The notes under the pieces are model-generated. The model saw only the letters and a list, made by a program, of their open reading frames with translations. It had not been told where the DNA came from and searched no databases. A stretch of DNA of 64,000 nt, taken from contig CAJFOS010000002.1 of assembly GCA_904397865.1 (NCBI GenBank), positions 62,001 to 126,000 on the forward strand. Reading direction: 5' to 3'. The DNA comes from Candidatus Allochristensenella caecavium. Its GTDB lineage: Bacteria; Bacillota; Clostridia; Christensenellales; QAND01. Within the stretch, counting starts at the first letter, position 1; the number at the start of each line of letters is the position of its first letter. Positions 31,462-40,520 of this stretch are shown piece after piece. A program made the position numbers and the translations under genes.

Positions 31462-32076
31462 TTATTGCATATACGGATTGAAATCACGTTCACGCTGAAG
31501 CGTAGTGGTCCGCTCATGGCCGGGCAGAACGCGATAATCCCCCTCCAGAGCGGCTAATTTACGCAGTGATTGGCGCATGGTATTCATGTCCCCTGTGGGG
31601 AAATCCACGCGGCCGCAACTGCTATAGAACAGCGTATCCCCCGCCACAAGATAGGAATCCACCTGATAGCATACACTTCCCTCCGTATGCCCCGGCGTTT
31701 CCAATACATGGAACTGCATACTGCCCACAGTGATGCAATCCCCTTCTTTAACCCAGCGGTCTGCGTGCAGCGAGCGTTCTTCGCCGAGCATGATGGATAA
31801 ATTTAGTTTGGGGTCTGCCAATACAGCCTGTTCCTTCTCGCCTGCATAGACGGGGCAATGGTAGGTTTCCCGTAGTTTTTGCACAGCTCCCGTATGGTCA
31901 AAATGACCATGGGTCAATAAAATGGCTTCCACCTTTAACTGCTGTTGATTGATAAATTCCTGCATTTCGGAGCCATCTCCGTCACAGTCTACAATCGCAC
32001 AGTGCCGCCCTTCATCGTAAAACAGATAACAGTTTGTCCCCATCTCGCCTAAAATGAACTGCTTGACTTCCACCAT
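31462..32076 (-). CDS. MBL-fold metallohydrolase (YqgX/GloB-like)
   Basis: 204 residues with the metallo-beta-lactamase site LTHGHFDHTG, then ETPGHTEGSVCY, VAGDTLFYSSCGRVDFPTGD and the final His in LPGHERTTTLQRE. All usual ligands for two metals are present. The family includes glyoxalase II-like thioester hydrolases. It ends the RR-kinase-GerMN-pdp-deoC run. Substrate unknown. Confidence 0.9.
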   Translation of the reverse strand: MVEVKQFILGEMGTNCYLFYDEGRHCAIVDCDGDGSEMQEFINQQQLKVEAILLTHGHFDHTGAVQKLRETYHCPVYAGEKEQAVLADPKLNLSIMLGEERSLHADRWVKEGDCITVGSMQFHVLETPGHTEGSVCYQVDSYLVAGDTLFYSSCGRVDFPTGDMNTMRQSLRKLAALEGDYRVLPGHERTTTLQRERDFNPYMQ

Positions 32077-32100
32077 CGCGTCTTTCTTCCCCTTTTCGTT

Positions 32101-32763
32101 TTATATAGACGTGTTTGCCTGCTGCATAATTGCAACGCTGTTGCTTACACCCAGCCGGTCTGCACCCGCACGAAGCATCTGCATGGCCTGTTCATACGTA
32201 CGGATGCCGCCGGACGCCTTTATTTTCATTGTATCGCCAACCGTCCGGCGCATCAAGGCCACATCTTCCGCTTTTGCTCCGCAAGCGCCAAACCCGGTGG
32301 ATGTTTTAACAAAGGCAGCGCCTGCTTTTTGTGCACATAAGCAAGCTTGCACGATTTCTTCTTCATGCAACAAGCATGTTTCCAGGATAACCTTGACAAT
32401 AGCCGGACGCGCAGCTTCCACTACTGCGGCGATATCCGCGTGCACAGCCTGCCAATCTGCCTGTTTGGCGGCGCCGATATGCATGACCATATCGATTTCC
32501 AGCGCGCCATCTGCCACGGCTTGCCGCGTTTCCGCCACTTTGACCTGGGTGTGCATTGCACCCAGCGGAAAACCGACCACACAGCAAGCTTTTACATCAC
32601 TTCCCCGCAAAAGCGCGTGCGCCAGCGGCACATAGCAGCCATTGACACAGACGCTGGCAAACCCGTATGTCAGGGCCTGTTGACAAAGCGTGCGGATTTG
32701 TTCAGCCGTAGCTTCTGGCTTCAGCAAGGTATGGTCCATATATTTTGCAAGCCTATGCGTCAA
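32101..32763 (-). CDS. deoC: Deoxyribose-phosphate aldolase
   Basis: 220 residues; cleaves 2-deoxyribose 5-phosphate to glyceraldehyde 3-phosphate and acetaldehyde. Visible: KYMDHTLLKPEAT, VVGFPLGAMHTQVKVAE and the Schiff-base lysine in AFVKTSTGFGACGA. The start is TTG at 32763 behind GGGGAGGA, overlapping pdp by 11 bases; a longer frame has no ribosome binding site. Together with pdp it degrades deoxynucleosides. Confidence 0.95.
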   Translation of the reverse strand: MTHRLAKYMDHTLLKPEATAEQIRTLCQQALTYGFASVCVNGCYVPLAHALLRGSDVKACCVVGFPLGAMHTQVKVAETRQAVADGALEIDMVMHIGAAKQADWQAVHADIAAVVEAARPAIVKVILETCLLHEEEIVQACLCAQKAGAAFVKTSTGFGACGAKAEDVALMRRTVGDTMKIKASGGIRTYEQAMQMLRAGADRLGVSNSVAIMQQANTSI

Positions 32764-34093
32764 AAAAACGTTCCTCCCCTTCTGCACGTACCACACCGAA
32801 TACCAGCGGCACCGCAACCGGCTTGTGGTCCTGCATGACAATCGCCTGCAAAAAGCGATGTTCCGCCTGTTCTGCCTGCGCAGTATCGTTGAGATAAAAA
32901 TCTGCTAAGGGCTGCCCTTTTTCCACAAAATCACCAACGCGCACGTGCATTTGGATGCCCACCAGCGGGTCAATCACATCTTCTTTTTTCATCCGTCCCG
33001 CTCCCAGCATCTGTGCGGCCATCCCAATTTCGGCGGCCTGCATCCGCGCTACATAACCGCTTTGTGGCGCTACAACCGGATGGATAATAGATGCCTGTCC
33101 AAGGAGCGAAACATCCTCACAGACGCGCGCATCGCCGCCCTGGGCTTGAATCATGACCCGCATCTTCTCCAGGGCGTCCCCATTTCTCAGCGCCTGTTCC
33201 AGCATTGCGCGGGCCTGAACGCTTGTCTGTGCTTTGCCCGTCATGCGCAGCAGTTGTTCACCCAGCAGCAAGCATACTTCCCGCAGCGGGCTGTCCACAT
33301 GTCTGCCCTGCAAAATTTCAATCGCTTCCCGTACATCCAAGGCGTTTCCAATGCTGTTTCCCAGCGGCTGGTCCATATCCGTAACGATAGCGGCAATCCG
33401 TTTGCCCAGATGGGCGCCGATATCTACCATCGTACGCGCCAACGCAAACGAATCCTCCACTGTATGCATGAAGGCGCCGCTTCCCGTCTTCACATCCAGC
33501 ACGATTACGTCTGTGCCGGCGGCGAGCTTCTTGCTCATCACAGAGGAAGCAATCAACGGCAACGATTCCACAGTCCCCGTCACATCGCGCAGTGCGTACA
33601 GCTTTTTATCTGCCGGTGCAAGTGCCTGCGTCTGCCCAACGATAGCCGCGCCGTTATCCCGTACCAGCTGCACCAGTGTTTCCGGGGAAATTTCAACCCG
33701 ATAACCGGGAATGGACTCCAATTTATCTAGCGTGCCGCCGGTGTGCCCCAAGCCGCGACCGGACATCTTGGCCATTTTCAAGCCGCAGGCCGCGGCCAGC
33801 GGCACTAAAATCAGCGTTGTCGTATCCCCTACGCCGCCGGTAGAATGTTTATCGCACACCACGTCCCCAACGGCCGATAAGTCAACTGTCTGGCCACTAT
33901 GGGTCATAGCATCGGTCAAATCCGCAGTTTCCTGCGCATCCATTCCTTTGAGCACAATGGCCATTAACAGCGCCGCCGCCTGATAATCCGGAATTTCACC
34001 GCGTGTAAAACCCTGTACAAAATCATCGATTTCCTGCCGGCTCAATGCGTGACCATCGCGTTTTTTAGCGATGATATCCACCATTTGCATCAT
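32753..34093 (-). CDS. pdp: Pyrimidine-nucleoside phosphorylase
   Basis: 446 residues; phosphorolysis of uridine, deoxyuridine and thymidine. Motifs: KRDGHALSRQEIDDFVQGF, DKHSTGGVGDTTTLILVPL (phosphate site) and MSGRGLGHTGGTLDKLESIP. Three in-frame ATGs (34093, 34090, 34084) follow AGGAGG; the middle one has the best spacing but all give the same domain. The next gene is deoC, which completes the catabolic route. Confidence 0.95.
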   Translation of the reverse strand: MMQMVDIIAKKRDGHALSRQEIDDFVQGFTRGEIPDYQAAALLMAIVLKGMDAQETADLTDAMTHSGQTVDLSAVGDVVCDKHSTGGVGDTTTLILVPLAAACGLKMAKMSGRGLGHTGGTLDKLESIPGYRVEISPETLVQLVRDNGAAIVGQTQALAPADKKLYALRDVTGTVESLPLIASSVMSKKLAAGTDVIVLDVKTGSGAFMHTVEDSFALARTMVDIGAHLGKRIAAIVTDMDQPLGNSIGNALDVREAIEILQGRHVDSPLREVCLLLGEQLLRMTGKAQTSVQARAMLEQALRNGDALEKMRVMIQAQGGDARVCEDVSLLGQASIIHPVVAPQSGYVARMQAAEIGMAAQMLGAGRMKKEDVIDPLVGIQMHVRVGDFVEKGQPLADFYLNDTAQAEQAEHRFLQAIVMQDHKPVAVPLVFGVVRAEGEERFFDA

Positions 34094-34105: not shown

Positions 34106-35452
34106 TTAGGGAGACTGCACCAATCCCGGGTTAGCAATCAGCGCTTTCCGTAGGATGATATGACCGCTGATACTATCCACATTCTTTCCTTCATTGAGAA
34201 ACAAAACCTGACGGATATCCGCCCGTTGTGTAACCGCATTGACAATTGCATAAACCAACTGCCGTTCTTCCTGCTCGGTCAAATCCTGACAGGCTGTATA
34301 AAAATCATCCGAAAAGTTCAGTGCTATCAAATCTCCATCTCTGACATAGGAGAGAATCAGGCTTGCGTCCACCTCTTCAGGAACGACGGCTTTATAATCA
34401 GTCGGGTCCTCTTCCAGCAGGCCGCGCAGCGTTTCCTGCACAGGCGCCAGTAAAGACCCCGCGTTTTCCCAGGGAATTGTCCGTTCGCCCATAATCAGCC
34501 CATCGCCCTGTTGCGGTGCAAAATACAGCTGAACCGTGGCGCCTTGTACGCGCTGCACAGATTCCATCGTATAATACCGTTCCAAATTCATGCCGTCCAT
34601 CTGTTCCGGCAGCTGTCCGTCTGCGTAAATCCAGACCTGTTTCGCTGTGGGCACATTATAGAGCATGCTCAATGCCAGTGCTGCATAATCCACGGCCGAA
34701 AGCGCCACCCCTGTTTCCAATTGCAGATACAGGCTGATTCTTTCCCCTTCTTGGATAAAACTGCTCAACCGTATGCCGCTGGCAAATGGATTATACAGCG
34801 TATCCATCCCCGTTGGTGTACCCAGGCCCGCAAATATCGTTTCCACTATGTTTTGTTTTTCCGGTACGACTTTGGGGGTCGGCACTGCATAGCGGCTGTT
34901 TTGATTGGGGTAATAGAGCAGAAGCGCCACCGTATGCTCCTCAAGGGTATTATCAATCCATTCCATGCCGTTAACGCCCGGCGGAATGGCATCATCTTGG
35001 GTCAGGACAATATATTGCACGTCGGCGAACGCTTTGAGGGTTTGTCCGCATGCTCGCCGCAGTGTAAGGATTTCCTCGGTTTCAACCTCTTGATGAAACG
35101 ATACATCCACATAGGCCACATTTTGTACAATCAACACGCTGTTCAATTCCGTTCCCCGCGGGGCAACGGGCAAGGCCGTTCCCTCCGGGCCGGCAATGAG
35201 CCGTTCCAGAATAACGTATTCAGCGCTCAGCCCTTCCGGTACATCCATCTCGCGCGTCTCTGCAATCAGGTGCCCATCCGCATCCTGAAAATACAGGGCG
35301 GCACGCACGCTGCTCTGCAAAGGCGGAAACTGTAAGTTGACCTGTGGCGTTTGTTCTTGCTCTACCTGGGCGCCGCAGCCACCGAGCACAACCGACACCA
35401 CTAGCAACAAGGTCAACATCCAGCTAGATTTGCGGGTATAACAAGTTCCCAA
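34106..35452 (-). CDS. Lipoprotein with two GerMN-type domains
   Basis: 448 residues: signal MLTLLLVVSVVL, lipobox GGC, then two similar GerMN-type modules (about residues 45-170 and 190-300) and a C-terminal region. GerMN-typical strings are AEYVILERLIAGPEG, VAYVDVSFHQEV and LALSMLYNVPTAKQVWIYAD. The start is TTG at 35452 with GGAGG nine bases upstream, and the gene overlaps the preceding GerMN gene by 29 bases. The product is exported and lipid anchored. It may act with the two-component system upstream, as LpqB does with MtrB in actinobacteria. That role is inference. Confidence 0.85.
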   Translation of the reverse strand: MGTCYTRKSSWMLTLLLVVSVVLGGCGAQVEQEQTPQVNLQFPPLQSSVRAALYFQDADGHLIAETREMDVPEGLSAEYVILERLIAGPEGTALPVAPRGTELNSVLIVQNVAYVDVSFHQEVETEEILTLRRACGQTLKAFADVQYIVLTQDDAIPPGVNGMEWIDNTLEEHTVALLLYYPNQNSRYAVPTPKVVPEKQNIVETIFAGLGTPTGMDTLYNPFASGIRLSSFIQEGERISLYLQLETGVALSAVDYAALALSMLYNVPTAKQVWIYADGQLPEQMDGMNLERYYTMESVQRVQGATVQLYFAPQQGDGLIMGERTIPWENAGSLLAPVQETLRGLLEEDPTDYKAVVPEEVDASLILSYVRDGDLIALNFSDDFYTACQDLTEQEERQLVYAIVNAVTQRADIRQVLFLNEGKNVDSISGHIILRKALIANPGLVQSP

Positions 35453-36383
35453 TGCTGCCGCCCTCCACTCTCCAAATGCCGGATTCCTGCCGTACTTCTA
35501 CCGGCTGATTGAACTTTTGCACCGTTCGTCCATCTTGCCCTTCCAGGGCGACATCGACATACACCGTTGCGGACTGCCCGTCTGCGCTAATCACGGTTTG
35601 CGTAACGACATATCGCTGCAACACGGCGTTACTCTGTTTGAATTGATTTTGAATTTCCTGTTCGGACGGCCGGTTTTCTCCGCCTGCCAGCATACGCCGC
35701 ATCCGTGTAGCGTTCTGTTCCAAAGCTCCTTCAAACAAAATCTGCACGGCGGTATCCGGTGTGAACACGAGCTCGTTATTCCGGCTCAGCGGTTCCAGCA
35801 ATGCATCCGCCTGTTCTGTAAAACCGACCTGGCCGCGCGTGGGCCTTGCCCCACGCGTCCTTATGTCACTTGTGATTAAAATCTGCACTTGCTGGTACTC
35901 ATCGCTGTGCGTCAATGTGTTGACCACTGCGTACAGGGCCAACTGTTTGCGATGAGCCAGGGCTTGCGCATCCAGATTGGCCCACGCTGCAGGCGTTTGG
36001 ATAAACGCCTCGGACAACGTCACATAAAGCACTTCATTTTCGCTGTACACCTCACCTACCTGCGTGCCCTCCGGCAACGCCGCGGCCAAATCCAATCCGC
36101 TTTCCGGCTGTTGGGCCAGTTCCCGCAGCAACACCTGCTGCCTGCTTTCCGAACTCTGTATACGCGCGCGGCGGGTGTAACCTGCCAACGCATTCTCGTT
36201 TTCAATGGGATAATAGAGCGTCAGCGTATCCGTCTGGCTTCCGCCCGCCGTAGTCATGGGATTGATGGCGGGCATATATTCGGATTCCGGCGCGGATTCG
36301 CTGATGCCTGCACAGGCAGTCGGCAGACAGGCCAGTACAACGGCCAGAAAAATGGCCATCCATCGCTTGATTCGTACTCTCAT
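35424..36383 (-). CDS. Lipoprotein with GerMN domain
   Basis: 319 residues: basic start MRVRIKRWMAIFLAVVLACL and lipobox PTAC, so exported and lipidated. A GerMN domain covers about residues 45-185 (TLTLYYPIENENALAGYTRR, EVLYVTLSEAFIQTP, LYAVVNTLTHSDEYQQVQIL). The C-terminal 110 residues (about 205-319) are a second beta-rich domain. The ATG at 36383 overlaps the kinase stop (ATGA) behind GGGGG. This is the direct neighbour of the kinase and thus the best LpqB analogue of the pair. Confidence 0.85.
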   Translation of the reverse strand: MRVRIKRWMAIFLAVVLACLPTACAGISESAPESEYMPAINPMTTAGGSQTDTLTLYYPIENENALAGYTRRARIQSSESRQQVLLRELAQQPESGLDLAAALPEGTQVGEVYSENEVLYVTLSEAFIQTPAAWANLDAQALAHRKQLALYAVVNTLTHSDEYQQVQILITSDIRTRGARPTRGQVGFTEQADALLEPLSRNNELVFTPDTAVQILFEGALEQNATRMRRMLAGGENRPSEQEIQNQFKQSNAVLQRYVVTQTVISADGQSATVYVDVALEGQDGRTVQKFNQPVEVRQESGIWRVEGGSIGNLLYPQI

Positions 36384-37828
36384 CCTTCCAACCCCCATTG
36401 TGGTACACGCATCGTAAAAATCGAGCCTTTATTCTCTTCGCTTTCGAGCATGATATCTCCGCCGTGCAGGCGGCAAATCTGCTGTACAATGGAAAGGCCC
36501 AAACCCGTACCGCCTGTTTCACGCGAACGGGCTTTATCCACCCGATAAAAACGTTCGAAAATTTTGGCCTGGTCATCCTTGGGAATCCCGATGCCCGTAT
36601 CGGCAACGTGGATGGCCACCCATTGTTCCTGTACATCCACCGAAATCGTGACGCTGCCGCCTTGCGGTGTGTATTTGATGCCGTTGGAAATCAGGTTAAT
36701 CAGGGCTGTTGTCATCTTAATCCGGTCGCATTGCAGGCGGATGACCGTCGGCAAAACAATCAGCGCCACCCCTTTTTCGTCCGCGATGGGCTGCAACGTT
36801 TTCACCGCTTCTTCGATGATATCGCTCACGGGTTGATTGGTATATCGCATCGCCACACTGCTGCGTTCGGTTTGTGCCAATTCGAGCAGGTCGCTCAACA
36901 GGGAGTTGGAACGGTCAATCTGCTCGTTGATATCATTGAGAAACTCCTTATACATTTCTTCCGGCACATTCTCCTGATACAAAAGCGACTCGGTCAAAAT
37001 CTTGATGGCACTCATCGGCGTTTTCAGTTCATGCGACGCGTTGGATACAAATTCACTGCGCTGGCGGTCAATGCTGGCCAATTGTTCGCTCATGCGATTG
37101 AAGGTGCGGCCCATTTCCGCAATCTCGCTTGCACCGGTTACGCGCACACGGGCCTCGAAATCGCCATGGCTCATCCGCCGAATGGCGCTTGTCATTTGGG
37201 TAATAGGCATAGAAATCCAACGCGAGATAAAAATACTGGCCACTACCAGAATTACAAGGATGCACACCGACACCACTGTGAACTTCGTCATAACAGAATG
37301 GGTCAAATCCACCACATCCTGCATTGGCAGGCTGACCAGGAGGATGCCCACTTCGCGCGATTGATGCACGATGGAAGCCGTATAATAGACCACCCAGGTT
37401 TTGCCTATGCCCAATAACGAGGGGTTGCCAGTATTGACACGGTGATATCCATAAGAGGCATTGGTTTTTCCCTGACGCACATCCTCAACCTCCGGATGCC
37501 GCAGCAGCCGTCCGTTCAGTTCCGCGTGCGTGTCGCACAGCACGATGCCGTCCATATCCAGCACCAGAATGCGGCCGCCCAGTTCCTGCGCAGCGGAAAC
37601 GGACTGCACATAAAGGTCCGATGCATCCCTGTTGGCCGTATAGGAGGCCAGGCGAGCCGCCACGTTTTCCACTTGTTCGGATTGTGTAGTGGTACGCTGG
37701 GAAATCAAAAAGTTCCCAACCAGTTGATTGACCGTTAGGAACACAAAGAAGAACGCTAATGCGAACAATAGCGTATAGAGGACGACAATCCGTCCGCGTA
37801 TGGTACCAAAGATTTTACCGCCCCGCAA
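36380..37828 (-). CDS. Sensor histidine kinase
   Basis: 482 residues: TM1 (about 13-33), an extracytoplasmic sensor (34-180) with MDGIVLCDTHAELNGRLL, TM2 (about 181-203), HAMP (204-256), the phospho-acceptor His266 in SNASHELKTPMSAIKI, and an HATPase with LINLISNGIKYTPQGG and RETGGTGLGLSIVQQI. This is the ResE/PhoR/WalK layout. The start is TTG at 37828 inside the end of the response regulator gene, behind GGAGTGGG. The signal it senses is not known; the sensor domain and the two GerMN lipoproteins downstream point to an envelope cue. Confidence 0.94.
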   Translation of the reverse strand: MRGGKIFGTIRGRIVVLYTLLFALAFFFVFLTVNQLVGNFLISQRTTTQSEQVENVAARLASYTANRDASDLYVQSVSAAQELGGRILVLDMDGIVLCDTHAELNGRLLRHPEVEDVRQGKTNASYGYHRVNTGNPSLLGIGKTWVVYYTASIVHQSREVGILLVSLPMQDVVDLTHSVMTKFTVVSVCILVILVVASIFISRWISMPITQMTSAIRRMSHGDFEARVRVTGASEIAEMGRTFNRMSEQLASIDRQRSEFVSNASHELKTPMSAIKILTESLLYQENVPEEMYKEFLNDINEQIDRSNSLLSDLLELAQTERSSVAMRYTNQPVSDIIEEAVKTLQPIADEKGVALIVLPTVIRLQCDRIKMTTALINLISNGIKYTPQGGSVTISVDVQEQWVAIHVADTGIGIPKDDQAKIFERFYRVDKARSRETGGTGLGLSIVQQICRLHGGDIMLESEENKGSIFTMRVPQWGLEG

Positions 37829-38513
37829 AATAATATCCCACTCCCCATTTGGTTAAGATATATTCCGGATGCGCGCTGTCCCGTTCCAACTTCTCGCGCA
37901 GGCGGCGGATATGCACATCCACTGTGCGCAGGTCATATACGTTTTCTTCTCCCCGCTCGTTTTTCCACAGCGCATCATGCAAATCTTCACGTGAGAACAC
38001 CCGACCGATGTGGCTGGCCATTGTCCAAAGCAGGTTGAATTCCTTGGCCGTCAGATTGATTTCTTTTCCATCACGCTGTACGCTGCGCGCCGCAGGGTCA
38101 ATCACAAGCCCGCGCACCTGCAGGGGCTTGGCCGTTGTATTCTGTTTGTGCGCCGTCCGCCGCAATACGGATTTAATCCGGGCCTTGACTTCCAAGATAT
38201 TGAACGGTTTGACCATATAATCATCCGCCCCGTATTCAAAACCCAATATCTTGTCCATATCTTCACCGCGCGCCGTCAGCATAATGACCGGCAAATCCGA
38301 CGTTTCCCGAATTTTTTGCAGCACGTCTGTTCCACTGATTTTGGGCAGCATGACGTCCAGCAAGACCAAATCGTAATGCTGATGGTCAATCTGTTCCAAT
38401 GCGGCTTGGCCATCCAGTGCCTCATCCACCAGATACCCATCCTGTTCGAGTGCAAATCGCAACCCTTTCAAAATCATTGGTTCATCATCGACTGCCAAAA
38501 TCCGGTATGCCAT
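37815..38513 (-). CDS. OmpR-family response regulator
   Basis: 232 residues: receiver domain with VDDEP, phospho-acceptor Asp53 in LVLLDVMLPK and the switch lysine in YMVKPF; then a winged-helix DNA-binding domain (INLTAKEFNLLWTMASHIG, VDVHIRRLREKLE). The ATG at 38513 is eight bases after AAGGAG; one codon upstream is an alternative. It is the first gene of the run that ends at the MBL-fold hydrolase. A TATAAT sits at 38569-38574 upstream. Confidence 0.95.
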   Translation of the reverse strand: MAYRILAVDDEPMILKGLRFALEQDGYLVDEALDGQAALEQIDHQHYDLVLLDVMLPKISGTDVLQKIRETSDLPVIMLTARGEDMDKILGFEYGADDYMVKPFNILEVKARIKSVLRRTAHKQNTTAKPLQVRGLVIDPAARSVQRDGKEINLTAKEFNLLWTMASHIGRVFSREDLHDALWKNERGEENVYDLRTVDVHIRRLREKLERDSAHPEYILTKWGVGYYFAGR

Positions 38514-38606
38514 CATTTCTCTCCTTACAGCATGTATGTCCTTTTTAAATAAACGCTATGGTTGTTGTATTATAGCATAAAAACGGCGTTGAAAAAAATG
38601 GGCCTT

Positions 38607-39005
38607 TTATTGTTCTTCAATGATTATAGTCATATCCGTTTGCACAACCTGCGCCATCTGCTCCTGATTGAGCACGGCACGTTCCGTCGGTCCACCGGCA
38701 AGCATCAGCGCATCCGCCACCGTCTGCCCTTTTGTCAGTGTATAACGGCCAGGTTTATATACCGCGCCCTTGATTTCCACATAAACCGTGAGTGATTCCG
38801 GATATGGCGTTGCTATGGATGAGGCCGACGGCGTCAAAGAAGGAGTGACAGTCGATACGGCGTTGTTTTGCGGTGCCGATTGTGTCCGTGCGCGCAACTG
38901 CAGGAACAGATAACCCAACACGGCGAGCAGCACCAAGGCCAAGGCAAGCAGTACCATTTTTCGCATATCCGGTGCAGTTTGCCTTTTCTCATCCTTTTTC
39001 TGCAT
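38607..39005 (-). CDS. Membrane-anchored SLBB-domain protein
   Basis: 132 residues: transmembrane helix (about 19-38), a Ser/Thr/Pro-rich linker, then one SLBB-type module (YVEIKGAVYKPGRYTLTKGQ, VADALMLAGGPTERAVLNQE). That module is the one found at the start of ComEA and in polysaccharide export proteins. The DNA-binding helix-hairpin-helix of ComEA is absent. Start at 39005 follows AGAGG. It is divergent from dacF, and the -10 elements of the two promoters overlap. Function unknown; possibly a surface glycan-binding anchor. Confidence 0.75.
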   Translation of the reverse strand: MQKKDEKRQTAPDMRKMVLLALALVLLAVLGYLFLQLRARTQSAPQNNAVSTVTPSLTPSASSIATPYPESLTVYVEIKGAVYKPGRYTLTKGQTVADALMLAGGPTERAVLNQEQMAQVVQTDMTIIIEEQ

Positions 39006-39031
39006 AATTCTGCCTCTTTCGTATAAAAGCA

Positions 39032-39060
39032 TGGACATTTTCTTCTTTTTTATATTATAC
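39032..39060 (+). promoter_or_regulatory. Likely dacF promoter implying a leaderless transcript
   Basis: -35 TGGACA (39032-39037) and -10 TTATAC (39055-39060) with a 17-base spacer predict a start at about 39066-39068. The dacF ATG is at 39069 and has no ribosome binding site, so the mRNA may be leaderless. On the other strand a TATAAT at 39054-39059 overlaps this -10. Confidence 0.5.
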
Positions 39061-39068
39061 TTATCGGT

Positions 39069-40520
39069 ATGGATAAGCAACTTTTTTCAAAATGGATCGC
39101 GCGCGCATGCGCGTTGCTGATGATTGGTGCAAGCGTGTTGGGGGTTTCGCCTGCGGCACACGCTGCCACAGAAGCGCCTACGTCGGATGTCGATGCTTAT
39201 GTTTTAGCCGATTTTGATACGGGGGAGATTCTTTTATCCAAGGATGCGGATAAGCGCCTTGAACCGGCCAGCACGACAAAATTAATGACTGCGCTATTGT
39301 TGGTGGAAAACAAATCCGATTTGTCTGAAAAAGTGACGGTGGGCGCAGAGGTAAACCCATTCCCTAAGGGTTCCAGCCTGATGGGGCTGGAAGAGCATGA
39401 AACCCTTTCATTGATGGACCTTCTCTACGGCGCCATGCTTCCATCCGGCAACGATGCTGCCGCCGCTATCGCAGTAGCGGTGGGCGGTGATATGGATCAT
39501 TTTATCGAAATGATGAACCAGCGTGCGCAGGAACTGGGCATGACGGGTACGCATTATGTCAATCCACATGGGTTGACGACCAGAGAAGAGGATGAAGAAC
39601 ACTATACGACTGCGGCGGATATGCGCCTGCTAACGATTGCGGCTCTATCCAATGAAACGATTGCAAAAGTGCTCAAAACACCTTCTTACCAGACCAGTCC
39701 GACCAACAAACACCCCAATGGTTTTGCTTTGCAGACCACGAACAAATTGATTTCTGAAAAGGAAAATGACCAGCAGTATAATTATCGTTATGCTATTGGC
39801 GGTAAAACCGGCGTAACGACGGCTGCCGGCGGATGTTTGTGCGCAGCGGCGGAAAAGGGGGACCGGAAGTTGGTGGCCGTCATCCTGGGCGACCACAGTC
39901 TCAAAGGGACGCAGAAATATTACAAGCGTTGGACAGATTCCGCGGCGTTCTTTGATTATGGATTTACCTTGCAGCGCGTGGATTTGACGGAAAAGGTAAA
40001 AGCCGTATCCCTTACCGGCACGCCTCCCGGTTCGGAAAAAGACGTGCAGCTCGTCCCGCAGTATGATACGGATGCCATTGCAAAGTGGGTGGATAGCGAT
40101 ACTGCGGCAACCTTGGGTGCAGCTGACGCACAGGTGACGGCCAGTATCGAATGGGATGAAAGCCTAGCTTCACCCGCACCGGAAGGAAATGTGCTTGGAC
40201 AGGTTGTTTATAAAATTGGCGATACAGAAATCTATCGTTGTAATGTGACGCAAAAGGTGGAGGCCAAACAAACGCCGGCCAGCGATGGCGAAGGCGGAGC
40301 CAATGTATTTCTCATCATCTTGCTGGTGGTTGTGGGCCTTTTGCTGCTGTTGTTGATTTTGCGCATGGTATTGGTAGCCCAGCAGCGCAAACGGGCCCGG
40401 ATGCGGCGGCGTTCTCGTTATCTGGATGAAGGGCCACGGCGCAACAATTTGCGTGGGCGGCGGTTGCCGGACCCCTATGATTTGGGGCGGCAGCGTGACC
40501 GACATCACCGGTATCGTTAA
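39069..40520 (+). CDS. dacF: D-alanyl-D-alanine carboxypeptidase (DacF-type penicillin-binding protein)
   Basis: 483 residues: signal peptide (about 1-32, ending AAHA), serine peptidase domain with S68-T-T-K71 (SxxK), S126-G-N128 (SxN) and KTGVTTAAGG (KTG), a C-terminal beta domain, and a second transmembrane anchor (about 415-440) followed by a very basic Arg-rich tail. It trims the terminal D-Ala from peptidoglycan stem peptides outside the membrane. The signal peptide supports the ATG at 39069 even though no ribosome binding site is present. A terminator follows. Confidence 0.93.
   Translation: MDKQLFSKWIARACALLMIGASVLGVSPAAHAATEAPTSDVDAYVLADFDTGEILLSKDADKRLEPASTTKLMTALLLVENKSDLSEKVTVGAEVNPFPKGSSLMGLEEHETLSLMDLLYGAMLPSGNDAAAAIAVAVGGDMDHFIEMMNQRAQELGMTGTHYVNPHGLTTREEDEEHYTTAADMRLLTIAALSNETIAKVLKTPSYQTSPTNKHPNGFALQTTNKLISEKENDQQYNYRYAIGGKTGVTTAAGGCLCAAAEKGDRKLVAVILGDHSLKGTQKYYKRWTDSAAFFDYGFTLQRVDLTEKVKAVSLTGTPPGSEKDVQLVPQYDTDAIAKWVDSDTAATLGAADAQVTASIEWDESLASPAPEGNVLGQVVYKIGDTEIYRCNVTQKVEAKQTPASDGEGGANVFLIILLVVVGLLLLLLILRMVLVAQQRKRARMRRRSRYLDEGPRRNNLRGRRLPDPYDLGRQRDRHHRYR

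Follow-up and report, generated by a model that had tools for sequence, protein, structure and literature searches.

A conserved regulator-kinase-GerMN protein unit of Clostridia, probably a Wal-like envelope-sensing system

A 64,000-nt stretch of the Candidatus Allochristensenella caecavium genome (contig CAJFOS010000002.1, positions 62,001 to 126,000; hereafter the window, to which coordinates refer) contains four consecutive genes, all on the minus strand, coding for an OmpR-family response regulator (RR), a sensor histidine kinase with a HAMP domain (HK) and two extracellular proteins with GerMN domains (LP1 and LP2). The arrangement raises the question of whether the GerMN proteins are partners of the kinase, and to which known family of systems the set might be related. 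An initial annotation, made from the sequence of the window, had likened the locus to the actinobacterial mtrA-mtrB-lpqB unit. Its anatomical claims held: Pfam matches and reading frames confirmed the regulator, the kinase, the two GerMN proteins and the overlap of their genes, and the layout it had recognised corresponds to a conserved RR-HK-GerMN unit. With the longest frames, RR and HK overlap by 14 nt, HK and LP1 by 19 nt (4 nt if LP1 begins at an inner ATG at 36383), and LP1 and LP2 by 29 nt by way of a TTG start. The GerMN profile (Germane, PF10646) matched only the LP1 and LP2 genes in this 1.6-Mb genome; since its matches are confined to these two genes and the layout recurs in many genomes, the arrangement is not a chance one. 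The cluster is probably a Wal-like four-part envelope-sensing system in which the GerMN proteins would serve as accessory regulators, by analogy with MtrAB-LpqB, WalRK-WalHI and the walA-walRK genes of C. difficile.

The arrangement, initially presented as a feature of one Firmicute, was found to recur across the order and the class. Sixty-one genomes of the order (Christensenellales, which includes Christensenella) were searched with PF10646, which matched in 26; the 26 locus stretches were taken and their genes labelled by phmmer. A profile made from 20 kinases detected an HK orthologue in 23 of the 61 genomes with scores of 333–713 bits, the lowest belonging to a kinase truncated where its contig ends; the next kinases reached no more than 315 bits, and six rows of them were left out of the orthologue count. 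Every one of these 23 genomes, which span 13 families (of which only f1 is mixed), also contained the LP1-LP2 pair. Related loci without the lipoproteins, which the initial annotation had regarded as evidence against its proposal, were therefore absent from the order (0/23). The pair occurred without HK in a single genome (G008), which is 51% complete and has the locus at a contig end, and both were missing from the other 37 (Fisher p 6e-16 for joint occurrence, not corrected for the kinship of the genomes). The order RR-HK-LP1-LP2 was contiguous and on one strand in 17/23. Contig ends fall inside the unit in G002 and G056. In G005 the RR-HK and LP1-LP2 gene pairs are convergent, and in G014 and G058 they lie on different contigs; in these three genomes the LP genes are thus outside the kinase operon, yet both sets are retained. 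In G032, a Christensenella relative, RR lies ∼11 kb upstream of HK, separated from it by a 3140-aa frame (L177, 3040-12462), part of which matches Cna_B, while HK, LP1 and LP2 are still together. A 2.2-kb gap was also seen between RR and HK in C. hongkongensis (L085, between 3287 and 5477). Two genomes, G027 and G040, contain other GerMN genes and no HK orthologue. Tandem GerMN proteins (frames of 330–371 aa) unlinked to the kinase were noticed in L003, L028 (G036), L055 (G040) and L056 (G027), some of them in genomes lacking the kinase.

A scan of a collection of named genomes gave 61 loci. The complete RR-HK-LP1-LP2 order was present in Christensenella and in metagenome-assembled genomes labelled Mahella, Oscillospiraceae and others, and RR-HK followed by one GerMN protein in Flavonifractor sp. 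An92, two species of Anaeromonas, Lachnospiraceae, Butyrivibrio, Defluviitaleaceae, Cellulosilyticum ruminicola (where the kinase lies in two frames) and others; many of the loci had GerMN genes without nearby two-component genes. In an even sample of 196 genomes of the class Clostridia, HK was detected in 64 (threshold E ≤ 1e-100) and GerMN proteins in at least 134. A GerMN gene lay directly downstream of HK, on the same strand, in 60 of the 64; of these adjacencies, 24 were read from coordinates among the matches listed (to about E 2e-22), 28 from loci and 8 from fetched regions. In one further genome (G261) the locus is cut by the contig end. Two genomes (G199, G172) have second, lower-scoring kinases with no GerMN neighbour. 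The recurrence of the kinase-GerMN partnership in the class suggests that it is probably a multi-part cell-wall sensor.

The two GerMN proteins differ in architecture. LP1 has a single Germane domain (1.1e-14; 55.4 bits against a Pfam cut-off of 23), and its structural model (mean pLDDT 87.0) places this domain close to GerM (6gzb; Z 14.7, 129 aligned residues, rmsd 2.4, predicted structure). Its C-terminal part is predicted to form an NTF2-like domain, matched best by the N-terminal domains of class B penicillin-binding proteins (Z ∼12; 8f3o, Z 12.3, 107 aligned, rmsd 2.6). NTF2-type Pfam matches were weak and restricted to a few of 22 LP1 homologues (best, DUF4440, 1.7e-4). The structural matches listed for LP1 did not include YycH or YycI folds, although absence from such a list is not evidence. 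In LP2 the Germane match (105.8 bits, same cut-off) falls in three stretches, the best at residues 308–425, indicating three GerMN modules; the repeated modules announced by the initial annotation as a tandem are thus real, and number three. The lipobox is clean in LP2 and weaker in LP1. GerM of Bacillus subtilis shares the GerMN fold, and two Germane stretches, as in GerM, were detected by Pfam in most (6/8) of the kinase-linked single GerMN proteins scanned from other Clostridia. GerM differs in that the portions of PMC7924749 available mention no two-component genes with it.

In HK, Pfam identified HAMP (1.3e-14, residues 200–250), HisKA (7.4e-16, 256–321) and HATPase_c (4e-32) domains, and neither a PAS nor a named sensor domain at E ≤ 0.01. 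Prediction of the sensor structure, a check that the initial annotation had named, was made for the kinase. The AlphaFold2 model of residues 1–246 (mean pLDDT 82.2) had as its top match 9a5d, an integrative model of WalK with YycH (Z 17.4, rmsd 3.1 over 234 aligned residues), and gave Z 15.4 with the WalK ectodomain 4ywz (139 aligned, rmsd 2.0). Other Cache domains reached Z 13–15 (DctB, CitA and others, 14–15), so that the predicted ectodomain is best read as a Cache-type fold, WalK-like. Residues D99, E113, G127, H129 and G161 of the ectodomain are invariant in the 20 aligned orthologues.

The predicted ectodomain fold is one likeness to WalRK-WalHI of Bacilli; another is the presence, behind the kinase, of two membrane-anchored extracellular proteins, described there as ∼440–455 and ∼260–280 aa long in the accessible parts of PMC4801191 and PMC7299342. 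According to the latter, WalH and WalI bind and inhibit WalK, and the Cache domain of B. subtilis WalK senses wall hydrolysis through the products of D,L-endopeptidases; in S. aureus, WalH and WalI are portrayed as more accessory (PMC4801191, in part). In C. difficile, the sections of PMC9210968 at hand describe a PAS-less WalK and a lipoprotein, WalA, of unknown role, encoded in one essential operon (walA-walR-walK-truA2) that its authors liken to MtrAB. A PAS-less Wal-type Cache kinase with a lipoprotein gene in its operon is common to that system and the present one. By the description in those sections, however, WalA is encoded upstream and, instead of being a GerMN protein, has a beta-propeller and is unique to C. 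difficile.

These likenesses could mean that the locus is WalRK in its clostridial form, the places of WalH and WalI being taken by GerMN proteins. The best curated models agree with this in kind: among NCBIfam models, RR matched YycF best (233 bits) and HK matched WalK (NF033092; 277 bits), ahead of PnpS (271 bits). In addition, metallo-beta-lactamase and ComEC genes trail several loci, and the C. difficile kinase (PMC9210968, same sections) combines the lack of PAS with a lipoprotein. All these scores, nevertheless, were under the cut-offs (340, 725 and 400, respectively), and the RR of the window was only the third best match to YycF in its own genome. HK also differs from WalK of WalRK-WalHI in lacking PAS and in being accompanied by GerMN proteins, in a genome where YycH (PF07435) was not matched. 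In the class sample YycH was matched in 30 of the 196 genomes (22 over the cut-off), 13 of them HK-bearing (7 over the cut-off). Inspection of ten YycH regions identified, in five HK-bearing genomes (G159, G213, G236, G240, G262), a separate RR and a 588–601-aa kinase preceding a gene in the YycH position, which exceeded the Pfam cut-off in four of the five; a domain scan of one of these kinases, from G240, gave a HAMP-PAS-HisKA arrangement. The examined YycH stretches of G214, G237 and G126 contained no two-component pair. YycH matches without a walRK pair in the stretch examined were noticed in L223, L224 and L231, in genomes of one family (f50) that carry the GerMN-linked kinase. The coexistence of the GerMN-linked system with walRK-YycH loci rules out its identity with WalRK and largely refutes a Clostridia version of it, which is accordingly very doubtful; a swap of roles in genomes lacking YycH is possible.

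A second family to be considered is MtrAB-LpqB, with which the present locus has in common the order of an RR, a PAS-less HAMP kinase and a GerMN lipoprotein. In partially available sources, LpqB is reported to lower MtrB activity (PMC5845573) and described as probably modulating MtrB from the periplasm (PMC12338722), and an mtrAB/lpqB operon has already been drawn beside yycFGHI (PMC3262814). The two systems could go back to a single three-part ancestor that was passed down to both Clostridia and Actinobacteria. Consistent with this, no protein of its own genome matched the MtrB model (NF040691) better than HK, which led by 50 bits (218 versus 168); this is far below the equivalog cut-off of 450, and RR likewise reached 210.7 bits against a cut-off of 300 for MtrA (NF040689). 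The LP1 C-terminal domain weakly resembles the LpqB N-terminal domain, above controls: hhalign gave 45% with four LpqB sequences, whereas none of 10 other segments exceeded 6.2% and none of 60 column shuffles 3.9%, so that the NTF2-like domain is a possible further likeness. The order of domains is different, however: GerMN-NTF2 in LP1, and N-terminal domain-GerMN-propeller in LpqB. Moreover, there are two extracellular proteins here, one of them with three GerMN modules, and the beta-propeller (Gmad1) that Pfam finds in three of the four LpqB references (PD40 in the fourth) was absent from LP1 and LP2.

Phylogenetic trees were examined with MtrB references taken from 41 Actinomycetota genomes, four of which had a match over the cut-off, together with two further references at ∼420 bits, one a locus from a fifth genome and the other an additional copy in G097. 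In the HK-core tree (59 rows), 38 GerMN-linked kinases fell on one side of a branch supported at 100/97, and MtrB formed a clade of its own (100/100). Fifteen other kinases lay on one side of a branch that left MtrB with the GerMN clade (57/79), a grouping that would agree with common descent. In trees of RR and HK combined, the GerMN-linked clade was again recovered (100/100 with 37 rows, 100/99 with 27), but WalRK-type kinases were the closer ones in both: the WalRK/PhoR-type was nearer than MtrAB in the larger tree (90/67), and the smaller placed the GerMN clade and the WalRK-type together against MtrAB and the other kinases (93/85). MtrAB is represented in these trees by only 5–6 rows on a long branch. 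Approximately unbiased (AU) tests did not reject GerMN-linked kinases and MtrAB as one side (p 0.376 and 0.21), nor GerMN-linked kinases with WalRK alone (p 0.398). Because neither pairing is rejected, the nearest kin is not firm; the sequences do firmly indicate that the tested GerMN-linked kinases are one clade, separate from MtrAB. The comparison of the kinase with MtrB proposed initially thus yields separate clades that the AU tests would still allow to be joined. The curated cut-offs, the missing propeller and the separate clade rule out membership in MtrAB, although the two may share an ancestor. The resemblance first suggested is sound as an analogy of design; orthology with MtrAB-LpqB appears unlikely.

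The name of the GerMN domain could suggest a sporulation or spore-germination locus, in line with its Pfam description and with the presence of Spo0A in the window's genome and, in all, in 55 of the 61 relatives. However, no Spo0A was matched in five genomes carrying the system (G005, G006, G056 and G058, 90–99% complete, and G051, 71%), and Spo0A is present in 36 of the 37 that lack both HK and the LP pair. The system occurring without Spo0A, and Spo0A without the system, the two are not tied; a sporulation locus is ruled out by the Spo0A-less carriers and is scarcely credible. As separate observations, two adjacent short frames of the window's genome (G000:C6:54808-55593) match the Spo0A DNA-binding domain only, and stand-alone Spo0A_C frames (∼110–150 aa) are present in many relatives, with up to nine Spo0A_C matches in G036.

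How might such a system work? From its anatomy we infer an envelope sensor whose GerMN partners set the output of the kinase. The Cache-type ectodomain of HK would read a cue from the cell wall or the envelope; as B. subtilis WalK is reported to do, it would probably respond to a fragment of peptidoglycan. The membrane-anchored GerMN proteins would sit beside this ectodomain and set kinase activity, with LP1 as the constant partner and LP2 as an extension of several modules. HK would then phosphorylate RR, which would control wall genes, perhaps including that of the neighbouring D,D-carboxypeptidase. The GerMN-kinase contact, the sign of its effect, the cue and the regulon are all deduced in this way.

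Several observations weigh against this mechanism. The strict lipobox pattern was present in only 14 of 22 LP1, 16 of 22 LP2 and 4 of 10 single GerMN proteins, which indicates that anchoring differs among homologues. While 60 of the 64 HK-bearing class genomes had the adjacent GerMN gene and one was cut by a contig end, three (G167, G279, G215) lacked it, so that the finding made in the order, where no locus lacked the lipoproteins, holds for most but not all of the class. Furthermore, the HK profile was made from GerMN-linked kinases, and unlinked orthologues may therefore be under-detected. Joint occurrence would fit an output gene too, and GerM of B. subtilis, the one GerMN protein that the consulted papers study, is, in the available text of PMC7924749, an assembly factor of the sporulation (engulfment) complex rather than a kinase regulator. 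The GerMN proteins might thus be outputs, acting in envelope assembly or wall binding, that share an operon with the regulator controlling them and leave the kinase untouched. The overlapping same-strand genes, the role of GerM, the resemblance of the three-module LP2 to a structural or binding array and the separation of the LP genes from RR-HK in G014 and G058 all agree with this. Outputs, however, would be expected sometimes without the kinase and vice versa, and in the order the only such case is the incomplete G008; in addition, G032 keeps HK-LP1-LP2 together with RR displaced. An output role is, on this evidence, rather improbable, and the four-part sensor is the preferred reading. In G215 (L216, 3037-5868), two lipoproteins trail an orthologue-like kinase; by eye they are solute-binding-like, not GerMN, and this may be a partner swap.

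The coordinates of the system and of its neighbours are collected in Table 1. Of the 23 loci of the order, 11 have an S11 carboxypeptidase gene upstream of RR (some stretches being too short to show it), and other loci of the class have one too, a recurrence that points to the cell wall. An SLBB gene is also close to RR elsewhere in Clostridia (L042, L118, L119, L123, L184-L186 and others). At the other end, the pyrimidine-nucleoside phosphorylase gene starts 12 nt past LP2 and is preceded by AGGAGG; the transcription unit may therefore extend beyond LP2. Among the 26 loci it is present in that of the window's own genome only, where it is probably co-transcribed with LP2. The phosphorylase, deoC and a metallo-hydrolase gene trail LP2 at a spacing of a few bases (31462-34093, minus strand); in other genomes the genes past the LPs are ComEC, DNA polymerase III delta or others. 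Promoter and terminator scans gave numbers near shuffled expectation (13 versus 8.4 and 14 versus 9.4, respectively) and were set aside; a sequence resembling an extended -10 element, TGCTATAAT, was noticed by eye only within 38577-38569.

Table 1. Positions in the window of the system genes, their domains and the neighbouring genes
Feature	Coordinates	Strand	Remarks
RR, OmpR-family response regulator	37815..38516	-	233 aa; Pfam Response_reg 2.4e-30, Trans_reg_C 9.1e-26
HK, PAS-less HAMP sensor histidine kinase	36380..37828	-	482 aa; TTG start overlaps RR stop
HK extracytoplasmic sensor domain, Cache/PDC-type fold	37322..37717	-	~residues 38-169; AlphaFold2 prediction
LP1, extracellular protein, probable lipoprotein (VLAC)	35424..36398	-	one GerMN + NTF2-like C-terminal domain
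GerMN domain of LP1	35874..36221	-	residues 60-175; Pfam + GerM 6gzb match
NTF2-like domain of LP1	35427..35768	-	residues 211-324; predicted structure
LP2, probable lipoprotein (LGGC), three GerMN domains	34106..35452	-	448 aa; Germane 2.6e-30
Pyrimidine-nucleoside phosphorylase	32753..34093	-	Pfam; 12 nt behind LP2
SLBB-domain protein, upstream of RR	38607..39080	-	SLBB 3.9e-08
D-Ala-D-Ala carboxypeptidase (peptidase S11), divergent	39069..40520	+	Peptidase_S11 1.3e-52

No description of an RR-HK-GerMN unit was found in the literature searched, most subscription papers being outside its coverage. Accessory proteins known to tune such kinases are WalH/WalI in Bacilli and LpqB in Actinobacteria, and a further lipoprotein, WalA, is particular to C. 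difficile; the GerMN partner is present through much of Clostridia, including the cultured Christensenella, Flavonifractor, Anaeromonas and Cellulosilyticum. It is conceivable, albeit tentative, that PAS-less Cache kinases and LpqB-type lipoproteins make up a third, ancient line of two-component systems that sense the wall, distinct from WalRK-WalHI and predating the split between Clostridia and Actinobacteria. Its modules (GerMN, NTF2-like and propeller) would have been shuffled between lineages, and its survivors would be MtrAB-LpqB, the GerMN-linked system and perhaps WalA-WalRK of C. difficile. If the proposed sensor role is correct, the GerMN domain would gain a job outside sporulation, Clostridia would offer a third lineage in which to test the control of kinases by extracellular partners, and the system would bear on the origin of MtrAB-LpqB.

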